This document shows, one piece after another, positions 27,484 to 64,000 of a stretch of DNA of 64,000 nucleotides. The notes below the pieces were generated by a model, which saw only the letters and a list, made by a program, of their open reading frames with translations, was not told where the DNA came from and ran no database searches. Every line of letters starts with the position of its first letter. Position 1 is the first letter of the stretch. This stretch comes from Granulicella paludicola (GTDB taxonomy: Bacteria > Acidobacteriota > Terriglobia > Terriglobales > Acidobacteriaceae), in assembly GCF_025685545.1 (NCBI RefSeq), contig NZ_JAGSYC010000022.1:248001-312000 (forward strand), written 5' to 3'. Made by a program: the position numbers and the translations under genes.

Positions 27484-27567
27484 ATGAAGCTGATCCTCTC
27501 CAACTCGACTCTCTGCTGCCGCTGCTGTTGCTGCGCGGGTGAGCGTGTGGGCGAGTCGAGACGATAA
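27484..27567 (+). CDS. Poly-cysteine leader peptide 1 (cysteine attenuator, peroxiredoxin/tRNA-Cys)
   Basis: A 27-codon ORF with six Cys codons within seven (CCRCCCC, codons 11-17, 27514-27534), a basic N-terminus and the end ESRR. An AGGA site lies 8 nt before the ATG. It is followed 27 nt later by an intrinsic terminator and then by the peroxiredoxin gene. Clustered Cys codons before a terminator are the mark of a transcription attenuator that senses charged tRNA-Cys, and a tRNA-Cys gene lies at the end of the same transcription unit. The peptide itself probably has no function. Two similar leaders occur at 60597 and 60752. Confidence 0.82.
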   Translation: MKLILSNSTLCCRCCCCAGERVGESRR

Positions 27568-27593: not shown

Positions 27594-27633
27594 GACCCAC
27601 CCAAGGCCAGCGCCGGGTGGGTTTCTTGCTGTT
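27594..27633 (+). terminator. Attenuator terminator of leader 1
   Basis: ACCCACCC (27595-27602) pairs with GGGTGGGT (27615-27622), with an inner GGC/GCC stem, followed by TTTCTTGCTGTT. GGGTG (27537-27541) and GTGGG (27547-27551), just after the Cys codons, could pair with the 5' arm as an antiterminator, each only 5 bp. Confidence 0.75.
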
Positions 27634-27739: not shown

Positions 27740-28396
27740 ATGTCACTCCGCATCAACGACGTTGCACCCGACTTCACCGCAGAGACGACGCAGGGCCCCA
27801 TCCACTTCCACGAATGGATCGGCGACAGCTACGCAGTCCTCTTCTCGCACCCTAAGGACTTCACTCCGGTCTGCACGACCGAACTCGGCGCGGTCGGCTC
27901 GCTCGAAGCTCAGTTCGCAGCCCGCGGCGTCAAGCCCATCGGCCTCAGCGTCGACGGCGTCGAGAACCACGCAAAGTGGGCCAAGGACATCGAAGAAGTG
28001 ACCGGCGCAAAGGTGAACTTCCCCGTCATCGGCGACACCGACCTGAACGTCGCGAAGCTCTATGACATGCTGCCCGCCAGTGCTGGCGACACCTCCGAAG
28101 GCCGTACGCCCGCAGATAACGCCACCGTGCGCGTGGTGTACATCGTCGGCCCCGACAAGAAGATCAAGCTGCAGATGGCGTACCCGATGACCACGGGCCG
28201 CAACTTCGATGAAATCATCCGCGTCATCGACTCCATCCAACTGACCGCGAAGCATAAGGTCGCAACGCCTGCGAACTGGAAGCAGGGCGAGGACGTCATC
28301 ATCACGGGTGGCGTCTCGAACGAAGATGCGGACAAGATCTTCCCGGGTTACAAGACCGTGAAGCCCTACCTGCGGACAACAACGCAGCCGAAGTAA
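27740..28396 (+). CDS. 1-Cys peroxiredoxin (Prx6 type)
   Basis: 218 residues from ATG 27740, with a GGAAGG ribosome site. The peroxidatic site is PKDFTPVCTTELG (C45). There is no second cysteine in the protein, and the C-terminal extension (YPMTTGRNFDEIIRVIDSIQLTA...PANWKQGEDVII) is that of 1-Cys Prx6 enzymes. It reduces H2O2, organic peroxides or peroxynitrite in the cytoplasm and needs an external thiol for recycling. The gene lies between a poly-Cys attenuator and tRNA-Cys, so its level should rise when cysteine is short; a link between thiol shortage and peroxide defence is a plausible reason (inference). Confidence 0.92.
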   Translation: MSLRINDVAPDFTAETTQGPIHFHEWIGDSYAVLFSHPKDFTPVCTTELGAVGSLEAQFAARGVKPIGLSVDGVENHAKWAKDIEEVTGAKVNFPVIGDTDLNVAKLYDMLPASAGDTSEGRTPADNATVRVVYIVGPDKKIKLQMAYPMTTGRNFDEIIRVIDSIQLTAKHKVATPANWKQGEDVIITGGVSNEDADKIFPGYKTVKPYLRTTTQPK

Positions 28397-28442: not shown

Positions 28443-28518
28443 GCACCGGTGGCGAAGTGGCTAACGCGCTGGTCTGCAAAACCAGTATTCATGGGTTCAA
28501 ATCCCGTCCGGTGCTCCA
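28443..28518 (+). tRNA. tRNA-Cys (anticodon GCA), CCA encoded
   Basis: A full cloverleaf: acceptor GCACCGG (28443-28449) with CCGGTGC (28508-28514), 3-bp D stem GCG/CGC, anticodon stem CTGGT/ACCAG with loop CTGCAAA (anticodon GCA at 28476-28478), variable TATTC, T stem ATGGG/CCCGT. Discriminator U (28515) and CCA (28516-28518) are encoded; U73 and GCA are the cysteine identity elements. It begins 46 nt after the peroxiredoxin stop with no terminator between, so it is likely cotranscribed and subject to the upstream cysteine attenuator. Confidence 0.96.
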
Positions 28519-56272: not shown

Positions 56273-57109
56273 TTACGGGGTCGTCGTCCTATTCGCACCC
56301 GGAATCTGATGCGCAGCAACCACCGAAGCAGCAGCTGGCTTCGGCGCAGAAGCATTCGGCTTGAAAAGCGCGTTATAGCAGAACTGAATCCCAATCACCG
56401 TAAGCCAGAGACTCAACACCAGCCGCAACGTGCGGTTCGGAATCTTCGGAGCAAATCCCGAAGCCAGAACGCCACCAATCACACCGCCGATCGCCATCTT
56501 GATCAGAATCGCCGTCGCATAATGCCCACCAATCATGTGAACACCGCTTCCAACCAGCGCAATCACAAGCCCGAAAGCAAGATCTGTACCAACAACCAGC
56601 GGCGCAGACAGATTCGTCATACTGAGCAGCGCAACCGTTCCAAGAGCTCCAGCACCTGAAGACGAGAACCCGACCTCAGCGCCAATCGGCAGCATAATCA
56701 AACCGATCAGCTTCGCACGGTCCTTGTTCGGTCGAGCAATGCCAGCAGGCCGGAAATGCCGATAAATATGCCAGCCTGACGTAAAGATGATGATCGCGCC
56801 CAGCGCAAAGTAAAGCGCAGCACGAGGTCCGCTGCTGGCAACATGCTTGAACATGATGGAGCCAAAGATCACTCCCGGCAAACCGCCGAGCAGCATAAAA
56901 CCCAGCACGCGATAGTTCACCTGCTTGCGAACAACCTGCGCCGGAACCACGATGAGCTTCACAATCGCCGAATACGCCAGCGCTGTCGAGACCGCAATCT
57001 CCAGCGGCACATGCAGAAACAGAATCAGCAGCGGCGCTGTAATCACGCCCGCGCCAACGCCTGTAAGCGCGATGACGACGGCGATAAGGAATCCAATGAT
57101 GTAGTCCAT
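56273..57109 (-). CDS. TauE/SafE-family membrane transporter
   Basis: 278 residues with about eight membrane helices in two repeats (GFLIAVVIALTGVGAGVITAPLLILFL; GLIMLPIGAEVGFSSSGAGALGTVALLSM). TGVGAG...P.L and GF.S.GAGALG are the duplicated family motif. Members move sulfite, sulfoacetate or other sulfur anions across the inner membrane; some are importers in sulfate-assimilation operons. It is the last gene of the cys operon, 65 bp after cysH, so sulfate uptake or sulfite export are both possible. A Pro/Ala-rich tail ends the protein. Confidence 0.85.
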   Translation of the reverse strand: MDYIIGFLIAVVIALTGVGAGVITAPLLILFLHVPLEIAVSTALAYSAIVKLIVVPAQVVRKQVNYRVLGFMLLGGLPGVIFGSIMFKHVASSGPRAALYFALGAIIIFTSGWHIYRHFRPAGIARPNKDRAKLIGLIMLPIGAEVGFSSSGAGALGTVALLSMTNLSAPLVVGTDLAFGLVIALVGSGVHMIGGHYATAILIKMAIGGVIGGVLASGFAPKIPNRTLRLVLSLWLTVIGIQFCYNALFKPNASAPKPAAASVVAAHQIPGANRTTTP

Positions 57110-57174: not shown

Positions 57175-57888
57175 CTAGTGGCTTTCGGAGGCGTCGCTCG
57201 CAGGCGAAATATGAATGCCGCACTCTAGCTTCTGGCCGCCCCAGCGGCCAGAACGAGGATCGTTCGGATCGAGTGGCAGCGTCGTACAAGGCTCGCAGCC
57301 GATGCTCGTATAACCCTTGTCGTACAGGCTCAATAGCGGCACATCATGCTCCATCGCATACGTCCAGACATCCCTCGCGTTCCACTCCGTGAGCGGAGAA
57401 AGCTTGCGGATGCTGCGACCCGAGGGCAACGTAAAGTCATCAATCTCTTTCAACGCAGCTCGGCTCTTGGCCTGCTCGCGACGCAGCCCAGTGAACCACA
57501 CGTCGTAAGCCTCGAGCGCAGCGAACAGCGGCTTCACCTTGCGAATACCGCAGCACTTGCCGGGGTCGCTCTGGTTCAGAATGCCGAACTGCGACTCCTG
57601 CTCTGCAACTGTGATCTCGGGTTGAAGGCTCGTGAGGTTCATGCGCCACTCGCTCGCCATGCGATCGCGATACTCATAGACCTCGGCGAAGTGATAGCCA
57701 GTATCAAGGAACACCACCGGAATATCCGCTAGGTGACGCTGCACCATATGGAGCAACACCATGTCTTCCGCCTGAAAGCTGTTTGTCAGCACGAGCTTGC
57801 CAGTCGCCGTGGCAATGGAATCCGCGACAAGCTGCTCTGCCAAAGCAATCTTTTCTACCGTGCTTGGAACCGCAGCGACGTCACTCAC
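57175..57888 (-). CDS. cysH: Assimilatory adenylyl-sulfate (APS) reductase
   Basis: 237 residues from GTG 57888. The PAPS-reductase fold is present (TNSFQAEDMVLLHMV; FLDTGYHF), and the four iron-sulfur ligands KCCGIRK (C112, C113) and GCEPC (C198, C201) show a [4Fe-4S] APS-type reductase rather than a cluster-less PAPS reductase. The catalytic Cys is C223 in LECGIH. It reduces activated sulfate to sulfite. The start overlaps the cysN stop by 4 bp (GTGA), so it is translationally coupled. The APS type fits the absence of a cysC gene. Confidence 0.94.
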   Translation of the reverse strand: MSDVAAVPSTVEKIALAEQLVADSIATATGKLVLTNSFQAEDMVLLHMVQRHLADIPVVFLDTGYHFAEVYEYRDRMASEWRMNLTSLQPEITVAEQESQFGILNQSDPGKCCGIRKVKPLFAALEAYDVWFTGLRREQAKSRAALKEIDDFTLPSGRSIRKLSPLTEWNARDVWTYAMEHDVPLLSLYDKGYTSIGCEPCTTLPLDPNDPRSGRWGGQKLECGIHISPASDASESH

Positions 57889-59519
57889 GCGCGACCTCCA
57901 TTCAGGATGCCTTCAGTCTGCAGATGCTCAATGAGCGCGCCGGTTGCAGCGAAGGTCTTCGCGTCGAAGGTTGTGAAGTCGCGTAGCGCCGCACCTGCAG
58001 CATCAGACAGATCGCCTTCCACCAGCACGATCAACCCAAGCGCCAGCAGCGCATGCAGTGTCTTCTCCGCCAGCACAGCGGTGCGAACGACCAAAGCGCC
58101 TTGCGCAAGCAAAGCATGTTCCACCTCGCCAATGTCGAGCGACGACGTTGCAGAAAAAGCGATCAGCGCGGGCTTGTGCGCAGCGTTCGCCTGCTCATTC
58201 GAAAGTCCTCTGCGGATCATGCCCGCAGCCAACGTCGCATTGCTGTGTGGATCGATCAGAATGAAGTTGCCGGTCGCTCGGTTTTCGGCGTAGGGATCGA
58301 AATACAGCGCGCGTGTGAGCTCAATCTCAACAGTACCGATGTCGTTCATCCCCAGCGCATTGACGGCCTCGTCCGCAAAGGTCTGAATGTTCGTCCGATG
58401 CTGTACGCGCGTCACGCGCGCAGGGATCGTCGCAGAACCATGCTTCAGCAGATACGGCGTATGCGTCTCGAGGCGGCTCTCGTTGAACCACACCAGCGAA
58501 GCTTCAAGCGCCGATGCGCGCCGCGGTTGCGAATCCGGTGTCGTGATCATGTCGCCACGGCTGATATCGAGCTCGTCTGCCAGCGTGAACGCAATCGACA
58601 ACGGTGCAGTCGCCTCAGCAAGGTCGCCATCGAAGGTAGTGATAGCCGTGACCACACTGCTACGACCCGAAGGCAACGCTGTCACCGTATCGCCAGGACG
58701 CAGAGTACCCGAAGCAATCTGACCTGCAAAACCGCGGTAGTCCTGGTTCGGGCGGATCACACGCTGCACGGCCATTCGGAACGGCTCATTTGCAACATCA
58801 GTCCACACAGGAACCGTTTCAAGATGTCCCAGCAGCGTGGGTCCTTTGTACCAGGGCGTGCGCGTGCTGGCCTCGACGACGTTATCTCCATCGAGTGCCG
58901 ACACTGGAATCGTGGTCAGCGAGGAGTTGCCATACTGTTTCACCAGCGCAGCAAAGTCGCGCTCGATCGTGCGGTAGGTCTCCTCATCAAAACCTACGAG
59001 GTCCATCTTGTTCACTGCCGCAACGAGATGACGAATGCCCAATAGCGACGCGATGTACGCATGACGGCGCGACTGCGTAAGTATCCCCTTACGCGCGTCG
59101 ATCAAGATGATCGCCAGATCAGCAGTAGAAGCGCCCGTCGCCATGTTTCGCGTGTACTGCTCGTGACCTGGAGTGTCCGCGATGATGAACTTGCGACGCT
59201 GTGTGGCAAAGTAGCGATAGGCGACGTCGATAGTAATACCCTGCTCGCGTTCCGCTCGAAGGCCATCGGTGAGCAGAGCAAAATCGATCGCGGGCTCACC
59301 ATTCGCAGTAACGGCGCTGCCCTTGCCGGTCACAGCGCGCACCTGGTCTTCGTAGACCGAGCGCGAGTCATACAGCAGACGACCAATGAGTGTGGACTTG
59401 CCATCGTCCACCGAGCCTGCAGTGGAGAACCGGAGCAGGTCCTTAGTCTCTTCGGAGCGAAGGAAGTCTTCGATGGCAAAGTCAGTTGCGGGTTCGAGAA
59501 CTGCGTCAGTGAAAGACAT
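57885..59519 (-). CDS. cysN: Sulfate adenylyltransferase subunit 1, GTPase, with C-terminal extension
   Basis: 544 residues, about 100 more than usual. G1 is GSVDDGKS (35-42), followed by DTPGHEQY (G3) and NKMDLV (G4), then two beta-barrel domains typical of CysN. From about residue 441 an extra segment (HKPALIAFSATSSLDIGEVEHALLAQGALV) resembles the outline of an APS kinase domain but has no P-loop, so it is not a working CysC. With CysD it makes APS from sulfate and ATP, driven by GTP. It lies 1 bp after cysD. Confidence 0.93.
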   Translation of the reverse strand: MSFTDAVLEPATDFAIEDFLRSEETKDLLRFSTAGSVDDGKSTLIGRLLYDSRSVYEDQVRAVTGKGSAVTANGEPAIDFALLTDGLRAEREQGITIDVAYRYFATQRRKFIIADTPGHEQYTRNMATGASTADLAIILIDARKGILTQSRRHAYIASLLGIRHLVAAVNKMDLVGFDEETYRTIERDFAALVKQYGNSSLTTIPVSALDGDNVVEASTRTPWYKGPTLLGHLETVPVWTDVANEPFRMAVQRVIRPNQDYRGFAGQIASGTLRPGDTVTALPSGRSSVVTAITTFDGDLAEATAPLSIAFTLADELDISRGDMITTPDSQPRRASALEASLVWFNESRLETHTPYLLKHGSATIPARVTRVQHRTNIQTFADEAVNALGMNDIGTVEIELTRALYFDPYAENRATGNFILIDPHSNATLAAGMIRRGLSNEQANAAHKPALIAFSATSSLDIGEVEHALLAQGALVVRTAVLAEKTLHALLALGLIVLVEGDLSDAAGAALRDFTTFDAKTFAATGALIEHLQTEGILNGGRA

Positions 59520-59520
59520 T

Positions 59521-60483
59521 TTAGAAGTAGCCCTCGCGCTTCTTGATCTCCATCGAACCGTCGGTATCGTGGTCGATCACGCGGTTGGCGCGCTCGGAGC
59601 TGCGGAAAGACAGCAGCTCCGCAATGATCTTGGGAATGGTATCGGCATCGGAGCGAATGGCGCCGGTGCAAGGGCTGCAGCCGAGCGAGCGCAGGCGCGA
59701 CTTTACCATCTGCACCTCTCCGGGAAGCGACTTGACGAATGACTGCTCGACAGGTATCAGCGAGTCTCCGCGCACGATCATCTCGCGCTCCTTTGCATAG
59801 TACAGAGGCACGATGGGAATGTTTTCGAGCAGGATGTAATGCCAGATGTCCAGCTCAGTCCAATTGCTGAGCGGAAATACGCGAATGCTTTCGCCAGGCG
59901 AAATGCGCGCGTTGTAGAGGTTCCAGACCTCAGGCCGCTGATTCTTGGGGTCCCACTGACCTGCCTTATCGCGGAAAGAAAAGATGCGCTCTTTCGCGCG
60001 CGACTTCTCTTCATCGCGCCGAGCTCCACCGAAGGCTGCGTCGAAGCCGCCGTTGCGCAGACCATCAAGAAGCGACTGCGTCTTCAGCAGGCCGCAGCAG
60101 CGCTGCGTGCCGAGTACAGCAGGGTTTGCGCCATTGGCAATAGCGTCTTCGTTGCGCCAGACATGCAGATCGAGATCGAGTTCCCTCGCCAGGTTGTCGC
60201 GGAAGGTGAGCATCTCGTGGAACTTGAACCCGGTGTCTACATGCAGCATGGGAAACGGAATCTTGCCGGGGAAGAAGGCCTTCTGCGCGAGCCGCAGCAT
60301 CACGGAGGAGTCTTTGCCGATGGAGTACAGCATCACCGGATTTTGAAACTCGGCTGCGACCTCGCGGAAGATGTGAATGCTCTCAGCCTCAAGCAGCTTG
60401 AGATGCGAGAGCCGTGCAGGAGTCAGCGCCACTGTTGTTTCGGCTGTTGCGTGCAGCGCGGACTCGGTCAGAGTAGAGCTCAT
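59521..60483 (-). CDS. cysD: Sulfate adenylyltransferase subunit 2
   Basis: 320 residues from ATG 60483; AAGGGA lies about 10 nt upstream. The PP-loop reads [18 protein letters not shown], followed by [46 protein letters not shown] and [11 protein letters not shown], all CysD-typical; it ends KKREGYF, the conserved terminus. It adenylates sulfate together with CysN. First structural gene of the operon; a poly-Cys leader peptide and terminator lie in its 200-bp upstream region, so its expression should be controlled by the supply of charged tRNA-Cys. Confidence 0.96.
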
Positions 60484-60530
60484 ACGGTGATGTCCCTTGT
60501 AGATGTGATTCGCGAGATGCGGTGAGGAAG

Positions 60531-60563
60531 CGAAAACAAAACCCACTCGCGTTTGGAGTGGGT
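60531..60563 (-). terminator. Attenuator terminator of leader 2 (cysD)
   Basis: On the minus strand ACCCACTC (60556-60563) pairs with GAGTGGGT (60541-60548) around a 7-nt loop, followed by TTTGTTTTCG. It starts 33 nt after the leader stop. The segment GCACCCAC (complement of 60558-60565) of its 5' arm can instead pair perfectly with GTGGGTGC in the leader ORF (60612-60619). Confidence 0.88.
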
Positions 60564-60596
60564 GCTTGTTCCTACGTGTTGGACTGGCGTCTAGGC

Positions 60597-60683
60597 CTAT
60601 CGACAACACGCGCACCCACAGATACACGCCTGACAGCAACAGCTGCAACAGGAGGTATTTGCGAAGGTGCGAGAGAAAACCAT
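60597..60683 (-). CDS. Poly-cysteine leader peptide 2 (cysteine attenuator of cysDNH)
   Basis: A 28-codon ORF with ten Cys codons: CCSCCC at codons 12-17, then Cys at 20, 22, 24, 26 and 27, ending with Arg and TAG. Between the ATG and a perfect -35 box there is only a -10-like CATCCT (60691-60696) 7 nt upstream, so the mRNA may start at or next to the ATG; the AAGGAG touching the ATG is too close to be a normal ribosome site. Codons 22-24 contain GTGGGTGC, complementary to the terminator arm. If ribosomes stall at codons 12-17 this segment stays free to form the antiterminator, which predicts cysDNH expression when cysteine is scarce. Confidence 0.85.
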
Positions 60684-60690
60684 CTCCTTA

Positions 60691-60719
60691 AGGATGCGGG
60701 AGGGACCCAGGTTTGTCAA
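60691..60719 (-). promoter_or_regulatory. Promoter of leader 2 / cysD operon
   Basis: Minus-strand TTGACA (60714-60719, perfect -35), 17-bp spacer, CATCCT (60691-60696) as a weak -10. Predicted start point is at about 60683-60684, the first base of the leader ATG. Confidence 0.65.
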
Positions 60720-60727
60720 TGAAGGGT

Positions 60728-60756
60728 TTGACGTGGCGGCGGATAAACGCTATGTT
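60728..60756 (+). promoter_or_regulatory. Promoter of leader 3 / TonB receptor
   Basis: TTGACG (60728-60733) followed after 17 bp by TATGTT (60751-60756), which overlaps the ATG at 60752; transcription would then begin just before the in-frame GTG at 60767. Alternatively GATAAA (60742-60747) is the -10 and the ATG is at the start point. The -35 box lies 8 bp from that of the divergent cysD promoter. Confidence 0.55.
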
Positions 60757-60850
60757 CAAACGAACCGTGAAGTCCGTTGCCTATACCGCCTGTTGCTGCT
60801 GTCGCGCTTGTCGCGAGGCGTGCTGCTGCGCGGTTGAAAGGCTACGGTAA
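60752..60850 (+). CDS. Poly-cysteine leader peptide 3 (cysteine attenuator of a TonB receptor)
   Basis: A 32-codon ORF (27 codons if the GTG at 60767 is the start) with seven to eight Cys codons in two clusters: CCCC at codons 14-17, one at 20 and CCC at 24-26; basic N-terminus, ends ERLR. It is followed by an intrinsic terminator of the same design as in leaders 1 and 2 and then by a TonB receptor gene. GGTTCGA (60857-60863), just after the stop, can pair with TTGAACC (60902-60908) at the base of the terminator (one G-U), a possible antiterminator. No good ribosome site is seen, again suggesting a leaderless start. Confidence 0.82.
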   Translation: MFKRTVKSVAYTACCCCRACREACCCAVERLR

Positions 60851-60904
60851 GTTGCAGGTTCGAGTATTTCTCGTTTAGATCCTGAAGCATAACCAGAGCG
60901 ATTG

Positions 60905-60946
60905 AACCCACGCAGAGCCGGATACGGCGCGTGGGTTTTGTTTTGC
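60905..60946 (+). terminator. Attenuator terminator of leader 3
   Basis: AACCCACGC (60905-60913) pairs with GCGTGGGTT (60929-60937); an AGA bulge separates an inner GCCG/CGGC stem with a GATA loop. The tail is TTTTGTTTTG. Confidence 0.88.
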
Positions 60947-61052
60947 TGCGATGGACCTGCACGCAACTTCCTGACCCCCTTGAACAAAACCAAAGAGATG
61001 CACGCGATATCCGATGTCGCGCCTCGTACCCAGATTTTTCCAGGAGAATATC

Positions 61053-64000
61053 TTGTCTATCTCTCGCACAATTCTTGTCCTGATGGCCCTCGCCACCCCG
61101 GCGGCGCTGCATGCCCAGGTGGTTGGCGGCACCATCTCCGGCCGTGTGACCGATGCCACCGGCGCGGTGATTCCAAACGCTCATGTGGCTGTTCGCAATG
61201 AGGAAACCGGCGGCCTGCGCAGTCTGACGACCAATCGCGATGGCGAGTTCTCTGCCCCCTCCGAGCCTGTCGGCAGCTACACGTTAGAGGCCGAAGCACC
61301 CGGATTCAGCGACTACAAGAACACTGGCGTGACGCTGACGATCGGCCAGACGCTGGAGCTGACGCTGACGTTGCGAGCCGCCGGTTCAGAGTCAGTGACG
61401 GTCAACGATACGCCGCTGAGCGTGAACACCACGACCGAGCAGACGGCAGGCCTCGTGAACTCGCGGCAGGTAAAAGAGCTGCCGTTGAATGGCCGCAGCT
61501 ACGATCAACTCATTACGTTGAACCCAGGCACGGTGAACGCAACCAACCAGCGCGCTGGTGGCGTCGGCACGTCGAACTCTTCCGTGGGCAGCATGTTTGC
61601 CGTCTCGGGTCGCAGGCCGCAGGACAACCTTTTTCTGCTGAATGGCGTTGAATACACCGGCGCCTCGCTCATCAACGTGACACCGGGAGGCACGTCGGGA
61701 CAACTGCTCGGCATTGATGGCATTCACGAGTTCAACGTAGTCACGGATACGTACTCCGCGGCCTACGGCAAGCGCGATGGAGCACAGATCTCCATCGTGA
61801 CGACCGGTGGAACAAACGCGCTGCACGGCTCGGTGTACGAGTTTGCGCGCAACAGCTTTTTCGACGCGCGGAATTACTTTGACGGAGCGCGCATCCCTGA
61901 GTTTCAGCGCAATGACTTTGGCGCCTCACTCGGTGGGCCGATCAAGAAGGACAAGGCGTTTCTCTTTGCGAACTACGAAGGCTATCGCCAGAACCTTGGC
62001 GAAAGCCTGGTGACTCTCGTGCCAGATAACAACGCGCGCCTTGGACTGCTGCCGAACTCGAAGGGCGTCGAGACAGCTGTCCCCGTCAGCCCGGTATCTG
62101 CGCAGCTCCTGAACCTGTGGCCCGTGGCGAACGGCCCCGAGGTACTCGACCCCAACACGGGCTTCCTGACCGGCATCGCTAAGTGGATCGGTACAGCGCC
62201 GCAGAAGATTCGCGAAGACTTTGGCACGACGCGCTTCGATGAAAACCTGGGGACGAATGACACCTTCAACTCCGTATATACGGTCGATGACTCCTCCGCG
62301 ACCACACCTTCCGCCGATCCCTACTCCTACGTGACCGAGCGGTTGCGCGAGCAGGTGCTAAGCGCCGAGGAGAAGCACATCTTTGCGAAGATCGTGAACA
62401 TTGCGCGCTTCGGATACTCACGCGCGAGCTACTACTTCTACGGTTATGTGCCGGCGGCTCAGCAGGCGCTGACTCCAAGCGTGCGGGCAGGTGTGCCGAC
62501 CTACGCGGTAGTCATTGCCGGTTCAACGGCCTCGAATGGAGCTTCGTCGATCACGACCGCTGGCGCGAATGTTGGTTCGAACAACGGGATCACGCGCAAT
62601 CTATTTACCTTCGACGACCACGGCTATTACACCGTAGGCAAGCACAGCATCCAGGCAGGCGTGTGGGTGCAGCGGCTGCAGTCAAACGACAATCTTGCGC
62701 AGGACCAGTATGGACAGGCTGCGTTCAACTCTTTGACGACGTTCCTGGCCGGCAGCATCAAGACCTTCACCTATGCTCCTACCACCACGGAACTCGGGTG
62801 GCGGACCCTGTTTGTGAACGCCTTCCTCGAAGACACCTATCACATCACGCCTCGGCTGGAGGCACGTGTAGGCTTCAGGAGCGAGTCTTCGACCGGTTGG
62901 AGTGAGGTGCAGGGGCGTGCAGGTGTATATACCTTCACCGACAACGTGATCAGCTCAACGCCCAGCATCCGAGGGAATGCGATCGGCCCGAACCATGCGC
63001 TCTTTTTGCCCGAGCCGCGCGTGGGGCTTGCATGGAATGTCTTTGGCAACGGACGCACGAGCGTGACCGCGGGCGCGGGCCTGCATCACTCACTGCTGGA
63101 CGCACTCGACTACCGCCTGGATCAAGCTGCACCGTATAACACCGTGTACTCCTACGCCGGATCGACCGTAACGAATCCGACGGGGGTAACACCGCAGGTA
63201 TCACCTTCGACGGTGGACAGCGGCATCTCGACGCCCGCTCTGCTGGCTTACAACCTGAAGGTTGAACAGCAAATCGCACCGTCTACCTCGCTCTCGATCG
63301 GTTACGACGGCTCGCGCAGCTACCATCAGATTTTGAATGGAGATCTGAACGAGCCCGCCTACCAGGTGCTCGCGAACGGTCGCATCTACTACCCCACCAC
63401 AACGAAGGCCAATCCTGCCGTGGCGAACACTACGTCCTGGTGGAGCGGAGGTTCGGGTAACTACAACGCGCTGATCGTTGACCTGCGACACGACCTTTCG
63501 CACGGTCTTCAGCTGCGTGGAAACTTCACCTGGGCAAAGAACCTCGACGACGGCTCTGCTTGGAACACGTCGGTATCCTCGAATACGCCTGCGTTCGTCT
63601 CCGTGCCTTCGCTGCCGCACCTGGATTATGGTCCGGCGGCCACCGATATTCGTCACGCGGCCGCAATAAACGGCACGTATGAACTTCCTTTCGGCACAGG
63701 CAAGTCGTACCTCGCAAATGCAGGGCACGCAACCGAAAGAGTGATCTCGGGTTGGTCGATCTCTTCGATCGCAAACTTCCTGTCTGGCTTCCCTTTCTCT
63801 CCGCAGCTGGGCTACAACCCGACAGGTTCGGGCGATTCGCGCAATCCTGTGCGACCAGACGTGAACACAGCTTTCAGCGGCAAGCTGTACACGAGTGGCA
63901 CCACGGCCCAACGCGTGGCGCAGTACTTCAATCCCAACGTCTTCTCGGCGCCAGCTTATGGCTATGTCGGCAACGTACGTCGCGACTCACTTGTTGGTCC
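61053..64000 (+). CDS. Oar-like TonB-dependent receptor, C-terminus off the right edge
   Basis: 982 residues visible from TTG 61053 (CAGGAG 6 nt upstream). A typical signal peptide ends ALHAQ. The carboxypeptidase-regulatory-like domain (ISGRVTDATGAVIPNAHVAVRN, about 30-110), plug (ELPLNGRSYDQLITLNPG; FAVSGRRPQDNLFLLNGVEYTG) and the start of a large beta barrel follow, with no stop before the window ends. Only about 34% identical-looking segments are shared with the receptor at 33714 by eye, so it is a separate paralogue. It sits behind a poly-Cys attenuator and opposite cysDNH, so it probably imports a sulfur-containing nutrient (inference). Confidence 0.92.
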   Translation, partial: MSISRTILVLMALATPAALHAQVVGGTISGRVTDATGAVIPNAHVAVRNEETGGLRSLTTNRDGEFSAPSEPVGSYTLEAEAPGFSDYKNTGVTLTIGQTLELTLTLRAAGSESVTVNDTPLSVNTTTEQTAGLVNSRQVKELPLNGRSYDQLITLNPGTVNATNQRAGGVGTSNSSVGSMFAVSGRRPQDNLFLLNGVEYTGASLINVTPGGTSGQLLGIDGIHEFNVVTDTYSAAYGKRDGAQISIVTTGGTNALHGSVYEFARNSFFDARNYFDGARIPEFQRNDFGASLGGPIKKDKAFLFANYEGYRQNLGESLVTLVPDNNARLGLLPNSKGVETAVPVSPVSAQLLNLWPVANGPEVLDPNTGFLTGIAKWIGTAPQKIREDFGTTRFDENLGTNDTFNSVYTVDDSSATTPSADPYSYVTERLREQVLSAEEKHIFAKIVNIARFGYSRASYYFYGYVPAAQQALTPSVRAGVPTYAVVIAGSTASNGASSITTAGANVGSNNGITRNLFTFDDHGYYTVGKHSIQAGVWVQRLQSNDNLAQDQYGQAAFNSLTTFLAGSIKTFTYAPTTTELGWRTLFVNAFLEDTYHITPRLEARVGFRSESSTGWSEVQGRAGVYTFTDNVISSTPSIRGNAIGPNHALFLPEPRVGLAWNVFGNGRTSVTAGAGLHHSLLDALDYRLDQAAPYNTVYSYAGSTVTNPTGVTPQVSPSTVDSGISTPALLAYNLKVEQQIAPSTSLSIGYDGSRSYHQILNGDLNEPAYQVLANGRIYYPTTTKANPAVANTTSWWSGGSGNYNALIVDLRHDLSHGLQLRGNFTWAKNLDDGSAWNTSVSSNTPAFVSVPSLPHLDYGPAATDIRHAAAINGTYELPFGTGKSYLANAGHATERVISGWSISSIANFLSGFPFSPQLGYNPTGSGDSRNPVRPDVNTAFSGKLYTSGTTAQRVAQYFNPNVFSAPAYGYVGNVRRDSLVG

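Follow-up and report, generated by a model that had tools for sequence, protein, structure and literature searches.

A predicted cysteine attenuator upstream of cysDNH in Granulicella paludicola and its recurrence in Acidobacteriota

Introduction

Is transcription of cysDNH in Granulicella paludicola coupled to the charging of tRNA-Cys? The question is raised by a short, Cys-rich ORF that is followed by a terminator and then by cysD. A first-pass annotation of the window (the whole stretch of DNA that was analyzed, 64 kb) had described this arrangement as a cysteine attenuator with trp-like architecture. Predicted attenuators of Acidobacteriota are almost all without an assigned function, according to the accessible part of one report (PMC2965389). 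Here, the arrangement upstream of cysD is analyzed together with further Cys leaders of the same genome and with homologous loci from relatives. All features are listed in Table 1.

Leader, Terminator and Promoter Upstream of cysD

The genes downstream of the leader serve cysteine supply. The predicted operon is cysD-cysN-cysH-tauE, with the TauE/SafE-family permease gene probably at its end. The closest named CysD is that from Granulicella sp. dw_53 (87% identity).

The layout described by the first-pass annotation (a leader ORF of 28 codons with ten Cys, a T-tailed terminator 33 nt after its stop codon, then cysD) is exact, but it had been left unstated that all parts are on the minus strand. 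The Cys codons are 12, 13, 15, 16, 17, 20, 22, 24, 26 and 27. The terminator hairpin is ACCCACTC-CAAACGC-GAGTGGGT, followed by TTTGTTTT. Also exact is the complementarity that had been noted between leader codons 22-24 and the 5' arm of the terminator: GTGGGTGC (60619-60612) and GCACCCAC (60565-60558) are complementary over all 8 nt, six of the latter being inside the terminator stem and two immediately 5' of it. A protector (1:2) hairpin might form, as CGCACC at codons 5-7 is able to pair with GGTGCG, which is a weak indication. When searched against Rfam 15, neither this leader nor the others matched a family above the gathering score, the sole match being a tRNA.

Table 1. Features of the cysD, receptor, peroxiredoxin and reductase loci. 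Positions refer to the window, except for the last line.
Feature	Position	Strand	Basis or remark
cysD leader ORF, 28 codons, ten Cys	60597..60683	-	ORF reading of the sequence
Intrinsic terminator, 8-bp stem (60563-60541) and T tract	60533..60563	-	hairpin search
Putative antiterminator segment GTGGGTGC, codons 22-24, leader nt 65-72	60612..60619	-	complementarity, pairing computations
GCACCCAC, complement of GTGGGTGC, overlapping the terminator 5' arm	60558..60565	-	complementarity
Putative promoter TTGACA-17-CATCCT	60692..60720	-	spacing comparison among cysD leaders
cysD	59521..60483	-	CysD by NCBIfam; start at 60483
cysN	57885..59519	-	profile match; no APS-kinase domain match
cysH	57175..57888	-	profile match
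TauE/SafE-family permease gene	56273..57109	-	profile match
Divergent Cys leader VKSVAYTACCCCRACREACCCAVERLR (then stop), GTG start	60767..60850	+	ORF reading
Receptor terminator AACCCACGC...GCGTGGGTT and T tract	60905..60945	+	hairpin search
TonB-type receptor gene (CarboxypepD_reg and OMP_b-brl_4)	61014..64000	+	profile match; runs off the window
Cys leader MKLILSNSTLCCRCCCCAGERVGESRR (then stop)	27484..27567	+	Cys-codon scan
Terminator ACCCACCC-AAGGCCAGCGCC-GGGTGGGT and imperfect T tract	27595..27630	+	hairpin search
1-Cys-type peroxiredoxin gene	27740..28396	+	profile match
tRNA-Cys(GCA), one of two tRNA-Cys genes in the genome	28443..28518	+	tRNA search
Fourth Cys leader MKLSPIAACCPLLSHRACCAAY and terminator	L279:892-1020		precedes the only PF01077 reductase gene of the genome

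Transcription is predicted to start roughly 1 nt upstream of the leader ATG. Eight of 18 cysD leaders (L001, L003-L007, L033, L034) have TTGACA and a NANNCT hexamer separated by 17 nt, with the ATG 1-3 nt after the predicted start. This promoter call follows from the looser comparison of the 18 cysD leaders; a stricter scan for promoters in 60400-61100 detected that of the receptor gene but not that of cysD. An AAGGAG before the leader ATG is not conserved among cysD leaders; it is probably upstream of the transcription start and would not be a ribosome site. Judged by promoter spacing, the cysD leader is probably leaderless. The trp-like architecture is to be qualified: leader, terminator and competing pairing recur in relatives (see below), but a probably leaderless start sets the element apart from trp.

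We propose that the polymerase makes a leaderless or nearly leaderless mRNA and that translation of the leader ORF begins at the 5' end of this mRNA. Under shortage of Cys-tRNA, the ribosome would stall at codons 12-17 and leave GTGGGTGC exposed. This segment would then pair with the emerging 5' arm of the terminator, resulting in read-through into cysD-cysN-cysH-tauE. With ample Cys-tRNA, the ribosome would proceed to the stop codon and cover much of GTGGGTGC; the terminator would form, and transcription would end. The sulfur-supply genes appear, on this proposal, to be switched on when ribosomes run short of cysteine.

Recurrence Upstream of cysD Homologues

The upstream regions of cysD homologues were surveyed with a fixed rule. 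A Cys leader has at least four Cys in 8 residues, is encoded by an ORF of 8-45 codons and lies at most 400 nt upstream; a terminator was counted within 120 nt of the Cys leader. Usable were 107 of the 110 loci, while three had too little upstream sequence. Leaders were found in 23/107 regions and were accompanied by a terminator in 16/107 (counting L021, which has a doubtful terminator and was left out of the folding tests). The reverse strands of the same regions had Cys leaders in 4/107, with a terminator in 0/107. Among 1070 dinucleotide shuffles, 0.6% had a Cys leader, and 0/1070 had one with a terminator. Leaders are missed by this survey where another gene precedes cysD in the operon.

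All loci with leader and terminator (16/16) are from Acidobacteriota. They belong to relatives in the class of the window genome or have titles with Acidobacteria, Acidobacteriaceae, Acidobacterium, Granulicella or Terriglobia, and one is gp6. The sole Cys ORF found by the fixed rule outside this phylum (L081) has no terminator. At the Cys codons, TGC and TGT are exchanged while the residue is kept, and Cys spacing varies widely among homologues. In one leader listing, starts were set to the longest ATG, and those of L021, L051, L059 and L264 are probably too long.

In the same listing, 12 cysD regions have a Cys ORF without terminator (L009, L010, L019, L022-L025, L027, L036, L054-L056). A Cys cluster upstream of cysD is absent from L026 and L028-L031. 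The same layout was to be looked for before cysD in relatives, with cysD homologues devoid of Cys codons or terminator counting against attenuation. The former is found in the 16 loci; the latter is also true for many homologues, and the predicted attenuator is therefore patchy among relatives. This speaks in part against the original claim.

L026 and L028-L031 have, by eye, a short ORF of the type MxxxSxRIARCPRQ before cysD, with few Cys and no visible terminator. These ORFs are possibly another type of leader.

The Divergent TonB-Type Receptor Gene

A second Cys leader, which the first-pass annotation had left out, precedes a divergently oriented gene for a TonB-type receptor. The receptor family has no NCBIfam name; the complete ORF has 1082 aa (L142). 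The starts of the two divergent leaders are ~70-85 bp apart. The GTG at 60767 fits as start of the receptor leader because the ATG further upstream, at 60752, shares bases with the predicted -10 element (TATGTT). Divergent Cys leaders are also present in the genomes of L003/L143, L004/L154 and L005/L150. Among the receptor loci (this one and 29 orthologues, n = 30), a Cys ORF was found in 14/30 and a terminator in 4/30; ten of the 14 orthologue loci with a Cys ORF have no terminator.

That Cys leaders might be general to TonB-type receptors was considered and rejected, as they are found at 0/28 upstream regions of paralogues from the same genome (a usable locus was available for 28 of 36 matches; one of 29 paralogue loci had no usable upstream region).

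Among the receptor orthologues L143-L163, several have a Cys-cluster ORF close upstream. In several relatives, the order is a PF03601/YeiH-type gene, then the Cys-cluster ORF, then the receptor gene. The PF03601 family was checked for L146 and L156; the match to TIGR00698 stays under its cut-off.

Since Cys ORFs occur without terminator in 12 cysD regions and at ten of the 14 receptor loci, Cys leaders probably have a second mode of action in relatives. These same ORFs would fit translational or Rho-dependent attenuation, in which the ribosome position acts on Rho or on the start of the next gene, the hairpin being a terminator of the ordinary kind. Such cases have been reported or proposed for mycobacterial Cys uORFs, to the extent that the sources are accessible. 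For cysDNH, we consider this unlikely, given the terminator between leader and gene and the specific leader pairing in the cysD group (see below).

The Peroxiredoxin Gene and the Second tRNA-Cys Gene

A third Cys leader with terminator precedes a 1-Cys-type peroxiredoxin gene, and a gene for tRNA-Cys(GCA) starts 46 nt after the latter. Among 30 peroxiredoxin loci, a Cys ORF is present in 21/30 and a terminator in 19/30, compared to 0 for the reverse strands and 0/300 for shuffles. A tRNA-Cys gene is near the peroxiredoxin gene in 21/30 loci. In the 20 that were examined (L253 was left out, being near-identical to L252), it is on the same strand and 18-101 nt after the peroxiredoxin stop codon, and its sequence differs little except in the T arm. 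A terminator-like site between the two genes was seen in 1/20 (L246).

Of 46 tRNA matches in the genome, two are for tRNA-Cys. The other copy, beside tRNA-Gly, clearly differs in sequence from the one at 28443-28518. A search of the 245 nt upstream of the latter revealed no promoter-like site (at least 8/12 matches). Gene order and strand suggest that this tRNA-Cys is co-transcribed with the peroxiredoxin gene under control of the same putative attenuator. Both would then probably be switched on at cysteine shortage, as predicted for cysDNH.

Inspection by eye revealed that, in place of TTGACA, the peroxiredoxin leaders of the genus have in common two stretches, the first similar to GGCGGCGGT and the second to TAAAG. 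They perhaps reflect another sigma factor or the site of an activator. In another genus of the family, the DNA after the peroxiredoxin gene has an ARAGORN match to tRNA-SeC(TCA) (L269:2786-2883).

The Reductase Gene and the Genome-Wide Set

The genome was scanned for four Cys-type codons in a row (TGYTGYTGYTGY), and the surroundings of each listed site were read. There are 86 sites, compared to 40 for the reversed pattern. Of the short, Cys-dense ORFs at these sites, just three are followed by a terminator within 130 nt: those preceding cysD, the receptor gene and the peroxiredoxin gene (27484), all inside the 64-kb window. Nearly all other short Cys ORFs at these sites run across long ORFs and have no terminator.

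The excess of sites over the reversed pattern, and the position of these other ORFs, would be compatible with chance, that is, CTG/GCT-type repeats in the Cys frame which happen to lie beside an ordinary terminator. The controls with shuffles and reverse strands, which already speak against it for the group, and the recurrence before orthologues contradict this. We regard chance as extremely improbable.

The scan is blind to shorter Cys runs. A fourth Cys leader with terminator (L279) precedes the reductase gene; its product is predicted to be a NirA/Sir-type (sulfite or nitrite) reductase (best NCBIfam match NirA, below cut-off). Reductase leaders often have just three Cys, and a looser rule (at least three Cys, with CC) was applied. 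By this rule, Cys ORF and terminator are found at 25/30 PF01077 reductase loci, compared to 4/300 shuffles and 0/28 receptor paralogues. Cys leaders were not detected near cysS of the genome, near two PF01053 genes (the two strong ones of 12 matches) or near three of the six cysK-like matches. The genome thus has at least four predicted Cys leaders with terminators: those for cysD, the receptor, peroxiredoxin with tRNA-Cys and the reductase.

Metal-responsive Cys leader peptides exist. The peptides encoded here have a very high Cys content, and a peroxiredoxin is among the targets. A Cys-rich peptide might thus bind a metal or react with an oxidant, so that translation arrest and not tRNA-Cys charging is the signal. 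The targets, however, are sulfur-supply genes and a tRNA-Cys gene, and a metal- or oxidant-binding peptide fits poorly with the widely differing Cys spacing among homologues and with the three Cys of many reductase leaders. We consider such a signal improbable, even more so than an action on Rho or on the next gene's start.

Competing Pairing and Ribosome Position

The duplex of the cysD terminator arm with its own leader is better than expected from 300 shuffled leaders (p = 0.02). A duplex better than 95% of the shuffled leaders was obtained for 7/18 cysD and 10/21 peroxiredoxin leaders. Across these 18 and 21 leaders, the best partner of the terminator 5' arm has its end in the range from 33 nt upstream to 4 nt downstream of the leader stop codon. 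In a cotranscriptional window, the pairing probability is 0.67 for cysD leaders compared to 0.49 for shuffles (n = 17, p = 1e-4) and 0.68 for peroxiredoxin leaders compared to 0.41 (n = 21, p = 1e-6), these pooled p values being optimistic because the leaders are related to each other. Individually, 4/17 cysD and 9/21 peroxiredoxin leaders are below 0.05. The predicted antiterminator pairing is thus present, above the level of shuffles, for both sets of leaders. It was not above shuffles for the reductase leaders (0.45 vs. 0.49, p = 0.74, n = 23), and a duplex with p < 0.05 was obtained for 0/4 receptor leaders.

A swap test was performed with 15 diverse cysD leaders of the 18 (L003, L004 and L021 were left out). 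The terminator arms fit their own leaders better than other leaders (p = 0.003). With 11 peroxiredoxin leaders (10 of the 21 were left out), the own partner was not better (p = 0.23), the arms being nearly alike.

Folding of the leader RNA with and without masking of codons 12-24 had been suggested as a check. The ribosome was placed with its 3' edge 15 nt downstream of the first base of either the first clustered Cys codon or the stop codon. For the cysD leader, the computed antiterminator pairing is 0.47 with the ribosome at the first Cys cluster and 0.14 with the ribosome at the stop codon, so that, in silico, the stall frees the segment and the stop position masks it, as proposed. The mean of 17 cysD leaders changes from 0.67 to 0.19, that of 21 peroxiredoxin leaders from 0.68 to 0.10, and the positive control (E. 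coli trpL, same method) from 0.71 to 0.05. More RNA upstream is free in the stalled state and accounts for part of this contrast, which is why the test against shuffles matters. Once the complete terminator has been made, it dominates at equilibrium in both states (0.88 and 0.91 for the cysD leader, 0.96 and 0.97 for trpL). Therefore, the switch must be kinetic and depend on the order of synthesis.

With leader, terminator and competing pairing present and recurring in relatives, the attenuation originally proposed for cysDNH is supported. We consider it very probable that transcription is attenuated here by a ribosome-mediated mechanism responding to charged tRNA-Cys. More tentatively, and with somewhat more doubt than confidence, we speculate that tRNA-Cys charging is the master signal for poly-Cys attenuators in Acidobacteriaceae. 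Besides sulfate assimilation, the signal would govern an outer-membrane receptor for a sulfur source and an operon of peroxiredoxin with a dedicated second tRNA-Cys gene. A tRNA gene would then be under feedback through an attenuator that senses tRNA of its own kind, and oxidative loss of cysteine would be sensed via charging.

The recurrent set of Cys leaders in Acidobacteriota provides a testable sulfur regulon, and it offers a hint at the function of the receptor family, which NCBIfam leaves unnamed. What specialists may find most unexpected is the peroxiredoxin-tRNA-Cys arrangement, in which a tRNA gene is a candidate for control by an attenuator responding to tRNA-Cys. Titles and abstract openings, which mostly do not cover subscription papers, revealed neither a Cys attenuator in Acidobacteriota nor leader-peptide attenuation of a tRNA gene. 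Regulation of sulfur-related genes is said to be the subject of Lyubetsky et al. (2014), where prior cases could be described.

Comparison with Known Systems

The cysD leader resembles E. coli trpL in having codons for the product of the pathway, competing antiterminator and terminator, masking by the ribosome and similar computed switching. The systems differ in the amino acid (tryptophan there, cysteine here), and the cysD leader is probably leaderless, with a weakly indicated protector hairpin.

Polycysteine leaderless uORFs of mycobacteria were reportedly described by Canestrari in 2020. As far as the sources are accessible, these are similar to the leaders analyzed here in being leaderless (predicted here) and poly-Cys and in preceding cysteine-supply operons. 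They differ in having no conserved terminator hairpin and in acting by translation attenuation, whereas an intrinsic terminator with competing pairing is found here. The accessible part of PMC1262725 has Cys leaders without terminators in Mycobacterium and relatives, and translation attenuation of M. smegmatis cysteine genes is cited in that of PMC13236596.

In the literature examined, and within the accessible text, Cys attenuation with an intrinsic terminator is represented by a single predicted motif, uORFC-8-2, in which a Cys uORF and an intrinsic terminator precede cysS of Rhodobacterales (PMC8632094). It shares with the leaders described here the Cys codons in a uORF, the subsequent intrinsic terminator and the proposed logic. 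According to the same accessible text, it differs in being found only before cysS, in one alphaproteobacterial order and with two Cys codons. None of the leaders described here precedes cysS; their targets are cysDNH, the receptor, peroxiredoxin with tRNA-Cys and the reductase.
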